Positions 14,401 to 42,530 of a stretch of DNA of 64,000 nucleotides are shown piece after piece; position 1 is the first letter of the stretch; every line of letters starts with the position of its first letter. A program made the position numbers and the translations under genes. The DNA comes from Haloterrigena sp. KLK7 (GTDB taxonomy: Archaea; Halobacteriota; Halobacteria; Halobacteriales; Natrialbaceae), in NCBI RefSeq assembly GCF_037914945.1, contig NZ_CP149787.1, positions 2,604,001 through 2,668,000 of the forward strand, in the 5' to 3' direction. The notes below the pieces were generated by a model. That model did no database searches. It was given only the letters and a program-made list of their open reading frames with translations, and was not told the origin of the DNA.

Positions 14401-15084
14401 TGCCGCTGGTCGCGGCTTCCACTAAAAAGTCTCGGTGATCCTCTACAGGGGCACGTGAAAACGCCGGGGATGGCCGGCGTCGGAGCCCCCCTCCGACTGG
14501 TCAATGGGTGAATCGGGGAGGGGGTGGCGACCGAGGATGCAGTGTCAGATGGATGGGTGACGGTGGAACGATCCTCGATCAGTGGCGGGCGTTTCCGAAT
14601 GTCTCAGTTCGGACGGAACGAGTGGGAACGGCTCTCTTCCGTTCGCCCGCCGACTGGTGCTTCCAACCATTGGCAATTAAGTCTGTTGGCTCATTGACTT
14701 GATCCCGCGCGGCCCTTTCCGAGACGGTCAATACGCGCGATTTCTGAACTCGAGTGTAATCCGTCACCATCCTACTCGCAATGCTGCGTAGGGATACTGC
14801 CCGATTCGATCACTCAGATTCGCACGTTCCCGTGAGAACAATCGGCAAAAGACGCCACTATCAGATTACGGGTATAGCATCTGTGGCCTCGAGTCGGTCG
14901 CAAGGAGAGGTACAGAGGCCGCTGCAGATATCGAACCGAACCGCTGCAGATATCGAACCGAACCGCTGCAGAGTTGCGTTCGGTGCCCGATTTAACCGGC
15001 ATCCTTGAATGTGCAAGTGAAACCGGAAATACTACAACGCACTGAGACCACAAAATATTCAACAGATTGCGCAATTGGCATCAT
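14401..15084. other. Gene-poor stretch of the accessory island
   Basis: No convincing gene is seen in these 680 bases. They hold a short 22-bp tandem repeat (14921-14972) and scattered short frames without coding character or promoters. Together with the decayed gene before it, the stretch looks like debris of past insertions. No transposase motif was recognised. Confidence 0.5.
14921..14972. repeat. 22-bp tandem repeat, about 2.4 copies
   Basis: Unit GCTGCAGATATCGAACCGAA plus CC occurs at 14921-14942 and 14943-14964 without mismatch, followed by a partial copy GCTGCAGA at 14965-14972. Confidence 0.9.
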
Positions 15085-33424: not shown

Positions 33425-35080
33425 TCATTCCGCGCTATCGAACAGTTCGTCCAGCAGTTTCCGCTGTGCGGTCCGGAGGTGCTGGTGGAACGTCGACCGG
33501 GAGATCCCCATCGACTGGGCGAGTTCCTCGCCGGAGACGTTTCGCGGCCATTCGAAGTAGTCGGCGTAGTAAGCCTTCCGCAGCGCCGTCTGCTGGCGAT
33601 CGGTCAGCGACGACTCCAGTCGCGCCATCACGTCTTCCGGCGTTCGTCTGGGGCGATCGGTCTCGCGGTAGCTGATCAACTCGACCGCGTCGTATCGCCG
33701 CTCGAGCAGGTCGTAGACCGAGCGTGCAACCTGCCCGTTCGGGAGGTCGGCGGTGAGATCGACGATCGCGTCGTCGGCAGCGGTCTGGCGATCGGTCTGC
33801 GTGACGCCGGCCCTGGTCTCGAACCGTCGAACCGTCGCCCCGTGATCGGAGAGCGTCCGCAGAATGCCGTCGTCGACGGCGGTCTCGAGGAGCGTCCCGC
33901 CGTCGTACGTCGAGAGGACTCTGACGTCGGAAACGCCGTCGATCGCCGCCGCGTCCGGGGCACCGTCGACGGCTCGGTCGGCGTGGAAAAACGCGATCGG
34001 CGTCCCGTCCTCGTCGTCGGTCAGTCCCCGATAGGTGACCGTCGCCTCGAGTTCGGTCGCCAGCGCCGCGACGAACAGTTCGGGGTCCGCGATCGCGAGC
34101 TCGAGTTCGACGACGGCGTCGGTCGTCAACATCCGCCGCACCTCGATCGCGTTCATCGCGGTCGAGATCGTTCCGGCCAGCGAGTCGAGAACGAGCAGTT
34201 CGCGCTCCACGAAGACGTCCGGGGCGTCGGCGAACACCACGAGGACGCCGTACGTGACGTCGCCGTAGGTAAGCGGCAGTGCGGCGACCGACTGGAACTG
34301 CTCCCCGGCGCCCGTCGGCCACCAGCGTCTCGCGTCGTCGAACGATTCGAGGTCTTGAACCACTTGTGCGTCACCGTCCGCAAGCGCCCGGACGGCGGGG
34401 TGGCTCTCGTCCGACCCGAGGACGAGATCACCGTCCTCGAGGGGGACGTCGTCGGCGCCGGCCCACTCGCGCGGCGAGAGGCGACGGTTCGTGACGTCGA
34501 CGCGACCGATCCAGGCGAGCACGTACGGTTCGGTATCGGTGAGACGCGAACAGACCGCGCGTTCGATCTCCTCGCGGGTCGTCGCGCCGACGGCGGCGTC
34601 GGTGATGTCCCGGAGCAGGCCGTCGACGCGCTCGAGGACGTGCTCGAGCGTCCGGTGTTCCTCCCGGAGTTCCGCGGCGGTCTCCTCGGCGGCGATTTCG
34701 GCCAGTTTGCGCTCGGTGATCTCGAGGTGGACCACCGAGACGCGGAGCTCTCCGCCGATGTGAAATCGCTTCGCCCACATCAGGAACCACTGCTTTCGCT
34801 CGGGGGAGTGACAGGGGTACTCCATCGTGAAGGTCTCCCGCTCGCCGTCGATGAGCGCCTCGAGGCCTTCGACCGCCCGTCTGGCGTACTCGTCGGTATC
34901 CGCGTCTGTCCTCGCCGTCTCGATGTAGTTGACGCCGACGTGGTCCGTCCGATGATCGTCGGGACCGAACGCCTGCCAGGATTCGTTGGTCAGCAGGATC
35001 TCCCCGTCCTCGTCGAGGACCGCGACGGTGATGGGGAGCGTCTCGAGGGCGGCGTCGGCGAGTGTCTTCCCGGCGTCCAT
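33425..35080 (-). CDS. Bat-like PAS-GAF-HTH-10 regulator, 551 aa
   Basis: Domain order: PAS (about 5-125), coiled linker (125-160), GAF (about 165-315), a bacterio-opsin-activator-type insert, and a C-terminal HTH-10 domain (about 490-548, 'LTDRQQTALRKAYYADYFEWPR' in part, then 'GISRSTFHQHLRTA'). This is the architecture of Bat, which in Halobacterium senses oxygen/light and activates bop and crtB. Its position next to crtB supports control of carotenoid synthesis. No opsin or brp gene is in the window, so the bat name is not assigned. Confidence 0.87.
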   Translation of the reverse strand: MDAGKTLADAALETLPITVAVLDEDGEILLTNESWQAFGPDDHRTDHVGVNYIETARTDADTDEYARRAVEGLEALIDGERETFTMEYPCHSPERKQWFLMWAKRFHIGGELRVSVVHLEITERKLAEIAAEETAAELREEHRTLEHVLERVDGLLRDITDAAVGATTREEIERAVCSRLTDTEPYVLAWIGRVDVTNRRLSPREWAGADDVPLEDGDLVLGSDESHPAVRALADGDAQVVQDLESFDDARRWWPTGAGEQFQSVAALPLTYGDVTYGVLVVFADAPDVFVERELLVLDSLAGTISTAMNAIEVRRMLTTDAVVELELAIADPELFVAALATELEATVTYRGLTDDEDGTPIAFFHADRAVDGAPDAAAIDGVSDVRVLSTYDGGTLLETAVDDGILRTLSDHGATVRRFETRAGVTQTDRQTAADDAIVDLTADLPNGQVARSVYDLLERRYDAVELISYRETDRPRRTPEDVMARLESSLTDRQQTALRKAYYADYFEWPRNVSGEELAQSMGISRSTFHQHLRTAQRKLLDELFDSAE

Positions 35081-35175: not shown

Positions 35176-35184
35176 TTTAAATAC
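35176..35184 (+). promoter_or_regulatory. TATA box of the pilin-like operon
   Basis: TTTAAATAC lies 22-30 bases before ATG 35206. Confidence 0.6.
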
Positions 35185-35205
35185 GATCACGAGCCAGCAG
35201 CGGCT

Positions 35206-36204
35206 ATGGACTGGGAAGCACCCGTCGACGCCTGGTACGTGTGGCTGGGCGCCAGTATCGTCAGCCTCGCCATCGCCGGCGTCGTCCTCGCCTTGCCGAC
35301 GGGACCGCCGCCCGACGCCGAGGGCGCGACGAACGCGATCGAAGAGACGACCGCGAGCAGCTACGAAGCGGCGTCGACTCTTGACCACAACGCTGATACG
35401 ATTAGAATCGACGGGAAGACGGTCGCGCTGCGCAACGAACACGGGACCAGTCGCTCGAGTCTCAGGTACGGACAGGTCGTCGTCGTCAACGGCGACGAGC
35501 GACTCGAGCGACTCGTCCACGGCGAATCGTTCGAGACGGTGTTCGAATCGGAACTCGAGGACGAAGGCACGAACGCGGCGGCCGCGTTCATGGATCGCGT
35601 CGCCGACGCCGACGAGAACAACTCCGGCGAGTGGCTGACCGCATCGGACGAGCTAACCGTTCGTCAGGTCGCCGTCGAACCCGACGAACGGGCGAAATTG
35701 CACGCCAGTGGAGTCGATCACGATCGATCGGTGAAAGCTGGACTGTATTACCGTCCGGAACAGTTGTCGATCGATCCTCGTGACGTCGACGAAGGGACGA
35801 CGGTTACGTACACTGTCACAGGAGAAGTTCCCGTCGAAGCAACCGACCGAGTGCCTGCTGTGTATTCGACCGGCGGGTACGAGGCGGAGCGAACGGTTAC
35901 TCACGGCGACTCCGGAACCGTACGAATAGACCTCGGTTCTCATATAACGGACGGGAGCGAACTGAATCGATCGCGGTTTTCCGATATCGACGGATCGAGC
36001 GAGGATTTCTGGGCCGGTGTCTATCCGCTCACCGTAACTGCCGAGCTCGACTCGCAAACGTGTGAAACGACCCTTCTCAACCGGTTCGATTCCGGGTATA
36101 TTTGTTCGCCTGTTACCGCCACCGACGAGCGCGCGGCCGAACTGGACTGGGTCGAACGAAACGACGAGACGGAACAGTATCATGTCACGCTCGTGGTCGT
36201 CTAG
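35206..36204 (+). CDS. Membrane-anchored protein, first gene of pilin-like operon, 332 aa
   Basis: One N-terminal membrane helix (about residues 11-31) is followed by a long extracellular, beta-rich part. It resembles the DUF7283-type proteins found with haloarchaeal PilB/PilC (Tad-like) secretion genes; the family number is from memory. The middle is less GC-rich than the ends. It overlaps the next gene by 23 bases and starts a four-gene operon. No catalytic motif seen. Confidence 0.72.
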   Translation: MDWEAPVDAWYVWLGASIVSLAIAGVVLALPTGPPPDAEGATNAIEETTASSYEAASTLDHNADTIRIDGKTVALRNEHGTSRSSLRYGQVVVVNGDERLERLVHGESFETVFESELEDEGTNAAAAFMDRVADADENNSGEWLTASDELTVRQVAVEPDERAKLHASGVDHDRSVKAGLYYRPEQLSIDPRDVDEGTTVTYTVTGEVPVEATDRVPAVYSTGGYEAERTVTHGDSGTVRIDLGSHITDGSELNRSRFSDIDGSSEDFWAGVYPLTVTAELDSQTCETTLLNRFDSGYICSPVTATDERAAELDWVERNDETEQYHVTLVVV

Positions 36205-36655
36205 AGGACAGACGGAGCCGGTGGCGGCGCTCATCGCTGTCACGGCGATGGTGATCGCGCTCGCGCTATACAGCGGGTTCCTCACCGAGGTCCTCACGGA
36301 CCGTACCGACCGCTCGCCCGAGGAGGCCGCGATCGATCGCATCTGGGAGGACGTCTCCCACGGCGGCACCTTTGCAGCCCATCGGCCGACCGGCCTGGAC
36401 GACGTCGAACCGGACTCGCTTCCGCAGGGACAGAACGCCTATGTCGAGGTCACTGCGGTGACCGACGACGGCGATCGAACGGTCGTCGCGACGGAACAGT
36501 TCGGAACGGACGGAACGCCGGTCGGCGACCCGGAGGGGCCGCCCGCCGACGACTCCGGGATCGAGATCGGCGTCGCGGAACGGCCCGTTCCCGTCGAAGT
36601 CGCCCCCGGTGACGTCCGCGGCGGCACCCTTCGCGTGGAGGTGTGGGCGCCGTGA
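36182..36655 (+). CDS. Pilin-like membrane protein, 157 aa
   Basis: The N-terminus 'MSRSWSSRGQTEPVAALIAV' has a basic leader followed by a long hydrophobic helix (to about residue 34), like archaeal type IV prepilins cleaved after Gly. ATG 36182 is inside the end of the previous gene. The extracellular part is acidic. Family resembles DUF7284/7285 proteins of haloarchaeal pilus operons (inference). GTGA links it to the next gene. Confidence 0.72.
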   Translation: MSRSWSSRGQTEPVAALIAVTAMVIALALYSGFLTEVLTDRTDRSPEEAAIDRIWEDVSHGGTFAAHRPTGLDDVEPDSLPQGQNAYVEVTAVTDDGDRTVVATEQFGTDGTPVGDPEGPPADDSGIEIGVAERPVPVEVAPGDVRGGTLRVEVWAP

Positions 36656-37605
36656 GATCGGACCGCGCCGTCAGCACCGTGCTCGACGTCGCGTTCGCAC
36701 TGCTACTGGTCAGCGCGAGCGTCCTGCTGGTCGGACTCTATCTCGCCGCCACCGACGACCCGCTCGAGGAAACGCGGGCGGACCGAACCGCCGAAACGCT
36801 CAGCGGGTCGACGGTCGCCGTCAGCTACGATCTCGAGGCGATCACGGAGAGCGACCGCTACGAGGAACCGGAGACCGTCGACGGCTACGAACGGACGACC
36901 TACGGCTCCGCGACCGGTCTGCTCGCTGACGCAGCGGTCACGAACGCGACGATCGGCGACGGCCGATTGATCCGGTACGCCGATTCGTTCGCCGATAGCG
37001 TCGCCGCCAGCGTCAACGGCCGGTTCACCGGTTCGAACCGCAACGTCCACGTCGTCGCCAGCTGGCGCCCCTACGAGGACGCCTCGATCGCGGGAGAGGT
37101 GACCGCCGGACAGCGGCCCCCGCCGACCGCGGATACGACCGCCGCGACGACGACCGCCTCGAGCGGAACGCCCGCTCTCGAGAGTTCGGAACTGGCGGCG
37201 GCGTACGCCGACGAGGGAGATATCGACGCGCTCGCCGAACCGATCGCCCGCTCGATCGTCCGCGGCTACTTCCCGCCCGAGCGAACGCAACTGGCTCTCG
37301 AGCGGCGGGGCCTCGATCGGGCCGTCGCGACGACGCACTACCTCGAACTGGCCGATCGTCTCGATCCGGATCACGACCTCGGGCGAGACGACGGTCCGCT
37401 GCGGCGATCTGACGCCCGGGCCGACGACGCCAACGAGGTGCTGATCGCGGGCCTCACCGAACTGATCGCCGACGACCTCGAGTCGGGACCGATCGGGTCG
37501 GAACTCGACGCGATCGGTGACGACGAGGCCGAACTGGAAGCGTTCTTCGAGGACACCATCGCCCCTGGCGACGTCTATATTACGACATATACGTGGGAAG
37601 CATGA
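36652..37605 (+). CDS. Pilin-like membrane protein, 317 aa
   Basis: A GTG at 36652 overlaps the previous stop (GTGA) and opens 'VRSDRAVSTVLDVAFALLLV'. 'DRAVST' followed by a hydrophobic helix resembles the archaeal pilin signature 'RAVSPVIG'. The rest is acidic, with an Ala/Thr-rich linker (about 160-180) and helical C-terminal half. A GTG three codons upstream is possible. The stop overlaps the next ATG (ATGA). Confidence 0.72.
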   Translation: MRSDRAVSTVLDVAFALLLVSASVLLVGLYLAATDDPLEETRADRTAETLSGSTVAVSYDLEAITESDRYEEPETVDGYERTTYGSATGLLADAAVTNATIGDGRLIRYADSFADSVAASVNGRFTGSNRNVHVVASWRPYEDASIAGEVTAGQRPPPTADTTAATTTASSGTPALESSELAAAYADEGDIDALAEPIARSIVRGYFPPERTQLALERRGLDRAVATTHYLELADRLDPDHDLGRDDGPLRRSDARADDANEVLIAGLTELIADDLESGPIGSELDAIGDDEAELEAFFEDTIAPGDVYITTYTWEA

Positions 37606-40600
37606 CAGGAAAACAGTCACGAACGGCAACGGTATCGATCGACGATCGCGCTCGCGTTCCCTTCGCGATAATCGGGGTGTTGATGCTGGTGACCAGCGTC
37701 ATGATCGTCGGCGTCCTCCAGACGCGCGGCGGACCCGAGACGGAGATCGACGAAACGCTCGCGATGGACCGGACGGAAGCGGCCGTCCAGAGCGAACTCC
37801 GCGGTGCCGTCATCGATGCGACGCAGCAGGCCGCGGCCCAACCGGTAACGACGTCCGAACTCGACGCACTCCAAGGCAACCAGACCGAGACGTTCGAGAC
37901 GTATCTCGAGTTGTTGATCTACCTCGAGGTCCAGGAGTCGCTCCCGTCTGCCGGGCAGACGACCGGCGACGTCGAGACGACGATTTCCATCGGCGGAGAC
38001 GTTCCCGATGACCCCGACCGCGCGGTCAGCGTCGCCGACGACCGGATCGACGTCACGGAACGCACGGACGGCGACGGCCTGCTCGAGGTGACGCTCGATC
38101 GAGTGACGATCACGCTCGAGGAGGGCGACCGCGTCATCAGCGAGCGGACGGTGGACGACCTCACAGTTACCGTCGGGACGCCGATCCTCGAACTCCAGGA
38201 GAAGACCGAGGACTACGAGAACATGTTGAACGAGGGCTTTCTCGAGGGTGAGACCACCGAGTTCGAAAACCTGGCCCAGAAGACGGCCATGCGGCTCTAC
38301 CCGATGGCGTATTTCAAGTCGTTCATCAATCGGATGGACGAAGGAATTGGTGACGAAGATTTGGGCCAAGGATGGACATTCGACGAAATCCTCGAGAACA
38401 ACCATACGGAAGTGATGGCGAACGACGCCATCTTCGGCGTTCAGGAGGAAGTCTTCGGCGAGGACGCCGTTGACCCGTACGCGGACAGAGTGATGCGTCC
38501 GGCGTGGGGGTGTTTTGCGGCGGATATGATCGAGACGATGGCCGGTGACGACGGTAACGACGGTGACGAGCAGAACGACGACGGGTATCAGGCGACAGTG
38601 TCTGTCACGGATGGATCAGGTGATGGAATCCACGATGCGACCGTGTTCGTCGACGGAGCAAAGCGAGGAACGACAGCGCCCGGTAACGAGGTCTCGTTTG
38701 AACTCGCAGAGAACGGGACGCACTCGGTCGTCGTGATCGCGGATGACTACGAGCGATTCGAGCGGAGTATCCGCTTTTCCGAGCGGGATTCCCGGGAAAC
38801 GGTCGTACTTCGGCGAGCCGCCGATCGAACGATCGACGTCTACGGCCCGTCAGGAAAGCCGATCGACGGAGCCGACGTCAACGTCTGGTCGGACGACGAA
38901 CTCGTGTACGCGAAGACCGACGCCAGTGGAACGATCGATCTCGGTGCGCTCGATATCGACGATCGAGGGGAACTCACAGTCGAAATATTTGCGGACGGAT
39001 ACACGGACGCCTCGAAAACGGTTGAAATCGATCGATCCTACAACGCTGTCCTGACGACGGAAGACGCGTCAGCTGGCGAACTCGAGGACAGTGCGGGACT
39101 GCGCAGCTATTTCGGGGATAATTCGAGCCTCAAAGACACGGTTTGTAAGGACTTCCGTGAGTACCTCTTCGGCGATAGAGACGGTGACCTCCCCGACGCT
39201 CCTTCGACGACGGAAGTTATCGGCGGAATGTTCGGTGAGATGAGTCCGCTGACGCGGAATGAAGCGGTCGAACCGAACGATCTGGCCGATATCGCCTACT
39301 ACGAGATGATCGGCATCGGGGACCTCTCGACGGTGTTGGACGACCTTCCCAGTGCGATGAATCCTGATGATATCGAGGAGCCGATCAGTTATACTGAGGC
39401 GTTCGATCCGAAAATCGGAAACGGTGATTTCATCGACGAGATCTACGATGTGGACGTCGATCGATCGACTGAGGTGTCGTTCGAGTCGCTTCCCGCGAAC
39501 AGGAGCAACTCGTTTGCTGACTACGAGTACAATCGTTCGGAGTACGATTCCGGCGGGGTCACCGACATCGACGTCTCGTTGTCACAGGACTGGCGGTCTA
39601 GCAAGGGAGAGTTCGATGATCGAGATCTCCACAGTCTCACAATCGATGCCGATGTCGAAATTCAGGAGACATCGGTCTTCGAGAACGTGACGGAGAACGG
39701 AACCGATACGAAAACCATCACTCGATCTCCCGAAACGCTCTCGGTCTCGCTCGAGGTCGACATCGATGCGGATCTCGTCGACGATCTCAGGATCGATCGG
39801 AGCGATATCGAGGACGCTTTCGAGGCCGGGACGGGATACCCGGAACGGGGCGATATTACCGGCCTCTCTGATCCAGCCAACTTCGAGCACGTCGTGATCG
39901 ATTCGCTCGAAACGGTACTCAAAGTGGATTCCCTCGATCCGGACGGTGATCTCGAGTCCCAACTCGAAGCCGATCTCAACGAGTCGATCTCCGTCTCGAG
40001 TATTCCGTCCACGAATGACAGTGGCGATGGGGCGGTATCCGTCGCATCGGATATTCGATTCGGAGTCAACGGGGCGGGCTCTGCAAGTTACGACTTCGAG
40101 GATCTCGAAGCCAGCTCCGATCTCGACAGAGCCGAACTCAAAGAGTGGCTCGAAGATGACCTCTATCTGGTCAACGCGTACGTCAAGAAAGAGACGAAGG
40201 CGATCGAGCAGCCGCGGGTCGAGTTTCTGCGCAGCCCATCGCCGTTCAGGAAGCTAAACGACGAGATCAAAGACGTCGAAGACGAACTCGTGGAAACGGA
40301 GTCGTACGACAACGTTCCGGACCTCGTTCGAATGGCGGTGCGAAAGGCGTACTTCGATACGCTCACCGGTCGTATCGATGAGATGGCCGACTTCCACGAG
40401 GAAACGGTCGGTGAGGTCGACGATGCCATGTCTACGAGCGATGGCGCGCTCGACGACTCCCTCGATGTCGTCCAGGAGGTTTTCGCTGGTGACGTCCAGA
40501 CGGGAAGCGGAAACCTCGAGGGGTCGGACCTCATGGGCGACATGGAGTTCGACGTTTCCGGTTCGCCGACGTACATGGACCTCGAGACGGTCAACGACGA

Positions 40601-41129
40601 CGAGGTACCGTCGGTTCGACCGCCGAATGCCACAGTTATGGACACCGATGTCGACGGTGAACACGCTGCACTTGGGGTCAAATACGGGCAGCGACTGCCG
40701 ACACCGGGACTTCCGCTGGTTCCATGGCCACCGATGCTGTACGTCCTGCAGGTAAACAGCTACAACGTCGATATTCAGGGCGAGTACTCCCGCTTCGAAG
40801 TGAGTGCAACGGCGGGCGATCCAGTTGACGGCGAGGGAACGACGTACGTCCGTGATCAGATGGACGTCAAAGTCGACCTCGGCGGTAACGCTCCACAGAA
40901 GATCGGTGAGGTCGAACCGATCGAGTTCGATACCTCACTCGAGATTCTGATCGCCATGCCAGGAATGATGCCGATGAAATCGGGTGCGCCGCCGAACACC
41001 GGTGATCCGCCATTTGACGGACCACCGAGTTTTAGTAACCTGATCAAAAATCTCGGTGACAAGGATCTGATACTTGGATATACGGGCGAAAGTAGAAAAT
41101 ACGATGGTACTGGTCCTCTCAAAAGCTAG
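37602..41129 (+). CDS. Giant membrane-anchored surface protein of pilin-like operon, 1175 aa
   Basis: One N-terminal helix (about 22-45) anchors a very large extracellular region. About residues 335-485 hold two tandem carboxypeptidase-regulatory/PEGA-like beta modules ('GIHDATVFVDGAKRGTT' and 'PIDGADVNVWSDDE'). Long acidic helical segments flank them. It resembles DUF7286-type proteins ending haloarchaeal pilus operons. ATG 37602 overlaps the previous stop by four bases; a GTG three codons earlier is less likely. The part from 38.3 kb on is AT-richer than its start. Confidence 0.75.
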   Translation: MTGKQSRTATVSIDDRARVPFAIIGVLMLVTSVMIVGVLQTRGGPETEIDETLAMDRTEAAVQSELRGAVIDATQQAAAQPVTTSELDALQGNQTETFETYLELLIYLEVQESLPSAGQTTGDVETTISIGGDVPDDPDRAVSVADDRIDVTERTDGDGLLEVTLDRVTITLEEGDRVISERTVDDLTVTVGTPILELQEKTEDYENMLNEGFLEGETTEFENLAQKTAMRLYPMAYFKSFINRMDEGIGDEDLGQGWTFDEILENNHTEVMANDAIFGVQEEVFGEDAVDPYADRVMRPAWGCFAADMIETMAGDDGNDGDEQNDDGYQATVSVTDGSGDGIHDATVFVDGAKRGTTAPGNEVSFELAENGTHSVVVIADDYERFERSIRFSERDSRETVVLRRAADRTIDVYGPSGKPIDGADVNVWSDDELVYAKTDASGTIDLGALDIDDRGELTVEIFADGYTDASKTVEIDRSYNAVLTTEDASAGELEDSAGLRSYFGDNSSLKDTVCKDFREYLFGDRDGDLPDAPSTTEVIGGMFGEMSPLTRNEAVEPNDLADIAYYEMIGIGDLSTVLDDLPSAMNPDDIEEPISYTEAFDPKIGNGDFIDEIYDVDVDRSTEVSFESLPANRSNSFADYEYNRSEYDSGGVTDIDVSLSQDWRSSKGEFDDRDLHSLTIDADVEIQETSVFENVTENGTDTKTITRSPETLSVSLEVDIDADLVDDLRIDRSDIEDAFEAGTGYPERGDITGLSDPANFEHVVIDSLETVLKVDSLDPDGDLESQLEADLNESISVSSIPSTNDSGDGAVSVASDIRFGVNGAGSASYDFEDLEASSDLDRAELKEWLEDDLYLVNAYVKKETKAIEQPRVEFLRSPSPFRKLNDEIKDVEDELVETESYDNVPDLVRMAVRKAYFDTLTGRIDEMADFHEETVGEVDDAMSTSDGALDDSLDVVQEVFAGDVQTGSGNLEGSDLMGDMEFDVSGSPTYMDLETVNDDEVPSVRPPNATVMDTDVDGEHAALGVKYGQRLPTPGLPLVPWPPMLYVLQVNSYNVDIQGEYSRFEVSATAGDPVDGEGTTYVRDQMDVKVDLGGNAPQKIGEVEPIEFDTSLEILIAMPGMMPMKSGAPPNTGDPPFDGPPSFSNLIKNLGDKDLILGYTGESRKYDGTGPLKS

Positions 41130-41201: not shown

Positions 41202-42530
41202 TCAAACCGTTTCAAGGGCACCAATAACGCTATAGTTACCAGCAATACAATAGATAACAGAATCCTCAAGAACTGCATATCCCTGAATCATTCCTCGTGC
41301 CATATCTTGATGGGCACGAACATCAAAGGACCATCGTTGCTCTCCAGTTTCAGGGTCAACTGCGTTCAACTCCACATATCCATAGCCTCGCCAGACATAG
41401 AGTGTGTCTTCTGAAACAAATATTCGGCGTCCAGTCGGTCCAGAAGCAAGCATATCCGAATTCCACGTTGAGGGCTCTTTGCTTGTCGCTAATTCTCTTG
41501 TAAGTACTGCAGGTTGATCGAATACGCCTGCAGAGTAGATAATCCCATTTGCGATGGTCGGGGCACGACCAGCGACGACGGACTCATCATCGTCTTCGTT
41601 ATAGACGACTATGGACTCTCCCTCTCCTGTCTCTCCGTCGATTGCCAGAACTGTATCGAGTTCGTGCGTATAAACCGTTCCATCACGTACGAGTAGCTCA
41701 TTTCCGGAACTGACGTTCTCCGAGGGCGAATACGTCCACAGAATCTCACTTGTCTCGATGTCAGCAGCTATGATTTCGTAATCGTACCCATTGTTCGCCT
41801 CCTGGGATGCATACAGAATTCCATTATCTCCGATTGCGATATCTTGCGTAGAACTAGTATCTTTTTCCCAAATTGTCGCTTTCTCGTCAATATCGATGGC
41901 GTACAGTTTTCCACCGCTGTGAACGTATACAATACCGTCGTAAACTCGAATATCGCCGGAGGACAACGAATTGAGTTCGACCGTCCAGAGTACCTCTCCT
42001 CGGTCAGGATCGAGTGCATAGAAGGTCTCAGTGAGAAAATACACGGCATCATCGGTCACCGCTGGCGTCGTCGGCTCCCACTGGGGGTTCGGCGGTGTAT
42101 CCGATGGAAGTTCCGCCTCGTAACTCCATTCGAGGTCACCACTTTCGAGATCAATCGCGTGTAGCGTTGACGTTTCGTCGGCGACGTACACGAAGCCGTG
42201 TCCGACAACGGGGCCCGAAACTGCTCCGTCGTCTATTTCGACCGTCCACCCTTCCTCGAGCGGCCCATCGGGACCGCTCCACTCGTCGGTAGCCATCCCA
42301 TTGCTCGCGGAGAACCGCGCCATCGGCCACGATCCACCGCTCGAGGCGGTCTGAACACTTCCAGTCCCGTTTTCGTCAGCGGTTTCGCCGTTGCCGCTGG
42401 ATTCAGTGGTTCCGTTCTCGTCGTCTGAATCGTTGCTACCCGTACAGCCGGACAGGCCGGTAATCCCGACCGATGCGCCGCCACAGGCTGCGAGCCATCG
42501 TCGACGCGTCGATGTCGATCGTCGATCCAT
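41202..42530 (-). CDS. PQQ-type beta-propeller lipoprotein with Tat signal, 442 aa
   Basis: The N-terminus carries a twin-arginine signal ('RRRWLAACGG') and lipobox ('LSGC', Cys about 29). A polar Thr/Gly/Glu linker leads to an eight-bladed beta propeller of PQQ/BamB type, with blade hallmarks such as 'LHAIDLESGDLEWSYEA' and 'YALDPDRGEVLWTVE'. No PQQ-binding or catalytic residues are evident, so it is probably a surface scaffold or binding protein. Codon use is much less GC-biased than in the neighbours, which suggests transfer. It follows the pilin-like operon, convergent. Confidence 0.87.
   Translation of the reverse strand: MDRRSTSTRRRWLAACGGASVGITGLSGCTGSNDSDDENGTTESSGNGETADENGTGSVQTASSGGSWPMARFSASNGMATDEWSGPDGPLEEGWTVEIDDGAVSGPVVGHGFVYVADETSTLHAIDLESGDLEWSYEAELPSDTPPNPQWEPTTPAVTDDAVYFLTETFYALDPDRGEVLWTVELNSLSSGDIRVYDGIVYVHSGGKLYAIDIDEKATIWEKDTSSTQDIAIGDNGILYASQEANNGYDYEIIAADIETSEILWTYSPSENVSSGNELLVRDGTVYTHELDTVLAIDGETGEGESIVVYNEDDDESVVAGRAPTIANGIIYSAGVFDQPAVLTRELATSKEPSTWNSDMLASGPTGRRIFVSEDTLYVWRGYGYVELNAVDPETGEQRWSFDVRAHQDMARGMIQGYAVLEDSVIYCIAGNYSVIGALETV

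Follow-up and report, generated by a model that had tools for sequence, protein, structure and literature searches.

How does a set of pilin-like genes work when neither an ATPase nor a platform gene stands beside it? The question is raised by four overlapping plus-strand genes, DUF7283, DUF7285, DUF7284 and DUF7286, in the genome of Haloterrigena sp. KLK7 (4.64 Mb in 5 contigs, G000). They lie in a stretch of 64 kb (positions 2,604,001 to 2,668,000 of NZ_CP149787.1, the 3.84-Mb contig C1), which we call the window and in which all coordinates are given. A first-pass annotation of the same sequence had proposed an orphan surface-assembly module that uses a distant motor, or a machine on its own. 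We conclude, with a probability of roughly 0.8, that the four genes are the pilin and surface half of a split archaeal type IV (Tad-like) pilus operon of the PilB2/C2 type, co-switched with a motor half on another contig, C4 (212 kb), a small replicon of its own.

The description of the block itself was accurate. The open reading frames (ORFs) run from 35206 to 41129 as reported, and each protein has one hydrophobic N-terminal stretch. The start of DUF7285 overlaps the end of DUF7283 by 23 nt, the GTG of DUF7284 overlaps the stop codon of DUF7285 (GTGA) and the ATG of DUF7286 that of DUF7284 (ATGA), by 4 nt each; the starts are likely ones, read from the sequence. Every one of the four has a strong Pfam match and they are therefore real genes, although NCBIfam gives no match for any of the proteins. 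The families that the profile searches returned are not unrelated ones but families that stand in pilus operons.

This last point is best seen in the relatives. We compared the 20-kb neighbourhoods of 51 places where DUF7284 is found, using the longest ORFs as gene models and correcting start codons only where this is said. At most of these places the set comes after a distinct ATPase and a TadC-like gene, and the relative of that ATPase in the source genome is on C4. Across 145 genomes of the class, the C4-type ATPase is found 2.8-5.4 kb from DUF7284 at 97 of 110 places, and the intact operon has the order DUF7311, ATPase, TadC, DUF7283, DUF7285, DUF7284, DUF7286. A machine on its own is not supported, since the relatives hold the genes in one operon with a motor. 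It could still be asked whether the four genes are an autonomous surface module that needs neither ATPase nor platform protein, given that the window has no motor gene and that DUF7283 and DUF7286, without prepilin leaders, could be simple membrane proteins. Intact motor operons are the rule, however, and motor-less genomes are rare, and we regard such a module as very improbable.

The genome has five matches to the T2SSE ATPase family, all of them outside the window, so that the reported lack of an ATPase or platform gene nearby is not due to an adjacent ATPase having been missed. On C4 the gene order is TadC, ATPase, DUF7311 and then a divergent DUF7382, and the group is flanked by a CDC48-like AAA gene and, at its other end, by an orc1/cdc6-type gene; none of DUF7283-7286 follows TadC there. 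The C4 ATPase belongs to the VirB11/T2SSE family (PF00437, 5.3e-19) and has a Cys-rich N-terminal extension; among 13 relatives one of its cysteines is invariant and two are kept in at least 90%. When compared with structures its profile finds an archaeal GspE-type ATPase (2oap, 5.6e-35) and CpaF (1e-28), and it scores 138.8 bits with the TadA-family model, under the cut-off of 373. Judged from these profiles it is an ATPase of the TadA/CpaF kind. The suggestion of a distant motor is well supported, as the cognate ATPase and TadC pair is on C4 and a rare promoter motif is common to both halves.

The two halves are also inherited together. Among the class genomes the motor is found in 105 and DUF7284 in 106, with both present in 104, the set only in 2, the motor only in 1 and neither in 38 (Fisher 2e-31). 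One of the two genomes with the set only has its hit on a contig of 3,955 bases. G010 was rejected as a motor-only exception, because its neighbourhood carries DUF7283, DUF7285 and DUF7286. Within the family (117 genomes) the set is found in 66 and the motor in 63, which gives 63 with both, 3 with the set only, none with the motor only and 51 with neither; the congener G164 belongs to the last group. The 72 sets of the family are linked to the motor in 44 cases and unlinked in 28, where genes on separate contigs of draft assemblies were scored as unlinked.

The split is not peculiar to the source genome. Three congeners (G163, G165 and G166) carry very similar motor loci, on contigs of 172-181 kb, and in the two of them whose set region was compared (L199 and L200) the arrangement is that of the window. 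Seven of the unlinked cases in the family lie on a single contig with 0.15-2.1 Mb between the halves, and some others are on separate contigs of drafts. The position of the break varies: DUF7283 remains beside the motor in L100, L195, L198 and the single locus L109/L194, and in L102 both DUF7283 and DUF7285 remain. Set genes occur on either side of the break and the unlinked halves are still co-inherited, and what had been called an orphan is, in the evolutionary sense, one part of a split operon. One might suppose that this part is a decaying, functionless remnant, as the set is found without a detected motor in three genomes of the family. Yet all four frames are open and tightly overlapping, L199 and L200 keep both the arrangement and the promoter, and the motor is kept elsewhere in 20 of the 23 family genomes that have only unlinked sets. 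Decay seems to us a highly improbable explanation.

A further link between the two halves is a two-part promoter-like motif, TTTAARTACGAA...GGRCCA, 30 nt upstream of the start codon. In the source genome it stands before DUF7283 in the window and before the ATPase, DUF7311 and DUF7382 on C4. At loci with a split operon a TATA-like box, in most of them TTTAAATA, starts about 30 nt upstream of DUF7283 and is followed by a conserved CCA, and intact operons carry the two-part element upstream of DUF7283 and of other genes. A matrix built from DUF7283 upstream regions gave 341 distinct sites over 120 loci; shuffled DNA of roughly half that amount gave 3. A cleaner matrix was derived from the regions upstream of 49 DUF7283 genes outside the Natrialbaceae-type group and scanned over both strands of 350 kb of source-genome DNA, which was chosen and not random, two of its eight stretches having been picked around matches of a fitted pattern and of the prepilin peptidase. 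Seven sites scored above 17, before a PLD gene, DUF7382 (C4), an ORF of 51 aa, PilB4, DUF7283, the C4 ATPase and DUF7311 (C4); in the shuffled control, over 7 Mb, 14 sites exceeded 15, the best of them reaching 20.9. A bacterial promoter scan was discarded, being of no use in archaea.

The motif is placed at particular genes. A site 28-33 nt upstream of the start is found for DUF7283 in 77 of 84 cases, for DUF7310 in 65 of 79, for the ATPase in 67 of 94 and for DUF7382 in 12 of 14; HerA-like genes have it in 9 of 18 and MinD-like genes in 3 of 17. It is found in 2 of 78 DUF7285 and 1 of 75 DUF7311 genes, and in none of the 90 TadC, 64 DUF7284, 77 DUF7286 and 55 CetZ genes. The operon can be read as a series of promoter-led blocks, and this might explain why it can break between them. 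The 30-nt spacing fits leaderless transcription, and in Haloferax volcanii 72% of the protein-coding transcripts are leaderless (PMC4983044). The CsmR motif TATCA-N4-TGATA (PMC13286277) differs from the pilus motif. The presence of one such motif at both halves supports a putative regulon in trans.

A motif site is also found upstream of the PilB4 operon, and PilB4 might be the partner instead. Its locus (L011, C1:0.56 Mb) encodes a large PilB4-type ATPase with TadC, DUF7287, DUF7288, DUF7261 (below the cut-off), DUF7266 and DUF7289; it corresponds to the large-ATPase locus of this kind in H. volcanii (HVO_1160) and looked right at first. The four proteins would then now use another motor of the genome, above all this one, 2.09 Mb away on the same contig and equipped with its own DUF7287/7288/7261/7266/7289 pilin set, and PilB-C pairs of haloarchaea can indeed serve other pilin sets (PMC6491452). 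The motif site of the PilB4 operon is not at 30 nt; it lies some 150 nt or further from the start codon of the ATPase. PilB4 was rejected on linkage and co-inheritance. DUF7284 and DUF7287 are never less than 31 kb apart in 64 same-contig pairs from the class genomes (DUF7287 positions being those of the 130 genomes listed among 137 with a match), and DUF7287, found in 137 of the 145 genomes, fails to track the set because it is present in most genomes without DUF7284, whereas the C4-type motor does track it. The PilB4 locus is neither linked to nor co-inherited with DUF7283-7286, and we consider a change of motor improbable.

Several observations weigh against our explanation of a split PilB2/C2-type operon or limit what it can claim. 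The first-pass annotation had seen pilin-like leaders in two of the four proteins. This part stands as a fit to the class-III prepilin pattern, kept by orthologues of DUF7285 (64 of 77) and DUF7284 (50 of 63) and found in 2 of 83 for DUF7283 and 1 of 76 for DUF7286, but it is suggestive only, because the pattern also fires in unrelated proteins such as CetZ (7 of 53) and TadC (28 of 88). The prepilin-like look appears limited to DUF7284 and DUF7285. DUF7382 counts in favour by its occurrence, being above the cut-off in 104 of 105 class genomes with the motor and in 7 of 40 others (Fisher 1e-24), and it fits the description of mostly stand-alone PilA-type major pilins (PMC4858521); but its leader misses the pattern (0 of 14), so that we name it as a candidate major pilin only. 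The alignments drew on 13 of 30 DUF7283 and 11 of 25 DUF7285 references that passed a length filter, which 19 DUF7284 and 22 DUF7286 sequences also passed.

Structure comparison gave no trusted match. The AlphaFold model of DUF7284 is good (pLDDT 86), with a long N-terminal helix (8-36) and a many-helix alpha/beta domain, but Foldseek finds no match for it and the best VIA score, Z 5.7, is not trusted: the VIA matches are mostly ribosomal proteins with Z below 6, they may reflect a common arrangement, and pseudopilins such as GspK, which are not listed among them, may still resemble it. The model of DUF7286 is poor (pLDDT 47; a helix at 17-40, confident only at about residues 48-312 and 1047-1120) and a structure search with this poor model gave no fold match. 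The TadC/PilC platform protein has no Pfam hit and no PDB match and reaches an hhalign probability of 2.3 with other TadC proteins; its identity rests on position (a TadC-like gene is in the expected place in 90 cases) and on the published name PilC2. CetZ and the coiled-coil DUF7310 were found by phmmer neither at the motor half (L015) nor at the window half (L016), the two loci to which that search was limited.

The genomic associations have their exceptions too. G045 has the set and no detected motor in a one-contig assembly and is a real exception; G209 and G218 are the other genomes of the family with the set only and no motor detected. The co-inheritance signal is partly shared ancestry. 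For the split pairs, r between the distance matrices of motor and DUF7286 is 0.634; permutation gave a mean of 0.354, and 8 of 2000 permuted values equalled or exceeded the observed one. We weigh this result lightly because it is confounded by species kinship. In G033, in G117 and for the second set of G141 the nearest relatives of motor and set differ, which suggests, on sequence relationship, an exchange of pilus partners. Finally, a pattern fitted to the motif has six matches genome-wide, against 1 for the reversed-pattern control, but it was built on five own sites and recovers these five by construction, the sixth being the PLD gene.

We still consider that the set and the C4 motor very probably build one machine. 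C4 would supply the ATPase, the TadC/PilC platform, DUF7311 and, in the divergent DUF7382, the candidate major pilin, and both halves would be switched together by promoters of one kind, in which a TATA-like box lies 30 nt upstream and GGRCCA between box and start. DUF7284 and DUF7285 may be cut by prepilin peptidase, for which the genome has a gene (31.6 bits), and then pulled out of the membrane by the C4 motor; in a filament of DUF7382 they would be the minor, initiating or tip pilins. DUF7286 and DUF7283 would be surface or assembly parts, anchored in the membrane or borne on the filament.

Its composition identifies the system as the published PilB2/C2 pilus (PMC4858521, PMC9856176). PilB2 was identified here by gene order in two Haloferax loci (L116 and L120) and not by sequence comparison with H. 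volcanii; both loci have CetZ, a coiled coil, DUF7311, ATPase, TadC, DUF7283 and DUF7285, and L120 additionally holds DUF7284 and DUF7286. The likeness lies in the composition of ATPase, TadC and pilins, and the four-gene block and the motor are found in one genome. The PilB2/C2 regulon of Halobacteria (arCOG01818) is described as lying beside cetZ2, with pilB2 typically outside a regulon or absent in Natrialbales, where cetZ2 is not linked to the pilus (PMC9856176). The source genome differs in being split over two contigs, with CetZ beside neither half, and we class it as a split variant and not as an intact cetZ2-linked regulon because the pilin-type genes and the ATPase are on separate contigs (C1 and C4). 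The available part of that paper describes neither the separated pilin block nor the promoter. The system also resembles subclade 4F of Makarova, Koonin and Albers, with its Cys-rich ATPase N-terminal extension, coiled-coil partner, FtsZ-family gene in halobacterial loci, stand-alone PilA-type major pilins and large surface protein (PMC4858521), a likeness mapped by described features and not by arCOG membership; the subclade label is uncertain because PilB1 and PilB2 have been put in subclade 4C (PMC6491452). To the bacterial Tad (type IVc) pilus with CpaF/TadA the likeness is in the profile of the C4 ATPase, while Pfam found no sequence relation of DUF7283-7286 to TadE, F or G. The literature searched, which lay mostly outside subscription journals, names DUF7283-7288 nowhere and gives no description of the promoter motif. 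As far as this literature shows, the location of the missing pilin block, its co-inheritance with an unlinked motor and the shared promoter motif are new.

Coordinates of the four genes, their neighbours and the promoter-like motif in the window
Feature	Position	Strand	Length and start	Description
DUF7283 protein	35206..36204	+	332 aa	membrane helix at the N terminus; prepilin-type leader absent; PF23954 3.8e-51
DUF7285 protein	36182..36655	+	157 aa; ATG start	prepilin-like leader RG/QTEPVAAL; PF23956 9.9e-31
DUF7284 protein	36652..37605	+	317 aa; GTG start	prepilin-like leader RA/VSTVLD; PF23955 8.1e-84
DUF7286 protein	37602..41129	+	1175 aa; ATG start	predicted large surface protein, N-terminal helix; PF23957 1.3e-112, PF13620, PF08308
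BAT/HTH_10 regulator with PAS and GAF	33425..35080	-		divergent neighbour; PF15915, PF04967
PQQ-type beta-propeller, putative lipoprotein	41202..42530	-		convergent neighbour; PF13360 4.2e-37
Promoter-like motif TTTAAATACGATCACGAGCCA	35176..35196	+		30 nt upstream of DUF7283 start; predicted leaderless transcript; score 21.2

The flanking genes, which the first-pass annotation had read as a Bat-like regulator and a propeller lipoprotein, have Pfam matches to BAT/HTH_10 and to PQQ-type propellers. The regulator has an equivalent position in L199, L200 and L065, and relatives of the propeller come after DUF7286 at many loci of the same family. DUF7286 is a single gene in the source genome, its three matched stretches being all in one frame. 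Its residues of about 330-480 (window 38600-39050) are a lineage-specific insert with carboxypeptidase-regulatory/PEGA-like repeats, which L065 shares and which the other 17 relatives in alignment A1 lack.

Further genes were observed around split loci. MinD-like (DUF7125) and HerA-like ATPase genes are beside the split motor of several Natrialbaceae-type genomes (L195, L197, L198, L099 and L100), some of them with the promoter motif. DUF7857 genes recur near it (L067:16793-17158, minus strand; L193, L111 and L195-L197), some with motif-like sites upstream of their starts. In Natronorubrum texcoconense and G158 a TFIIB homologue, possibly a pilus-specific TFB, is near the split motor (L098:6054-6929, minus strand; L110:13951-14826, plus strand; L196:7139-8047, minus strand). 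A second set without motor in N. texcoconense (L066, on the 208,817-base contig C8 of G116) adjoins a CDC48-like gene resembling the one beside the C4 motor of the source genome, and the operon may at one time have been complete on that replicon. Possible natural hybrid pilus systems are seen in L105/L106 (G033) and L104/L062 (G141).

Two further matches of the motif, one at the ORF of 51 aa and one at position 14428 of the window, are unproved. The PLD-family protein is predicted to be exported (L211:8165-10003, G000:C1:3820134; L207:1501-1522 and 1532 onward), with the motif 31 nt upstream of its ATG. It matches PLDc_2 (1.4e-20), its best family models include NucT nuclease and DrmC, both under the cut-off, and no relatives were found in the other 127 of 128 loci. 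Besides the PilB2, DUF7283-7286, DUF7382 and PilB4 sites, its site is the one further match of the fitted pattern in the genome. The motif might mark a trans-replicon regulon that has a dedicated factor of its own, perhaps a TFB linked to the pilus, and that handles DNA, in which case the split pilus would serve Natrialbaceae for the capture of DNA or for transformation. We think this idea unlikely.

An apparent orphan operon can now be studied as one of two loci of a probable single machine, for which a motor, a candidate major pilin and a promoter element are named. The family offers a natural series, with the operon intact, split at three positions, with its motor lost or its partner swapped, for the study of mutual recognition between the pilus motors of archaea and their pilin sets, and the promoter motif may be a way to find what regulates these pili.

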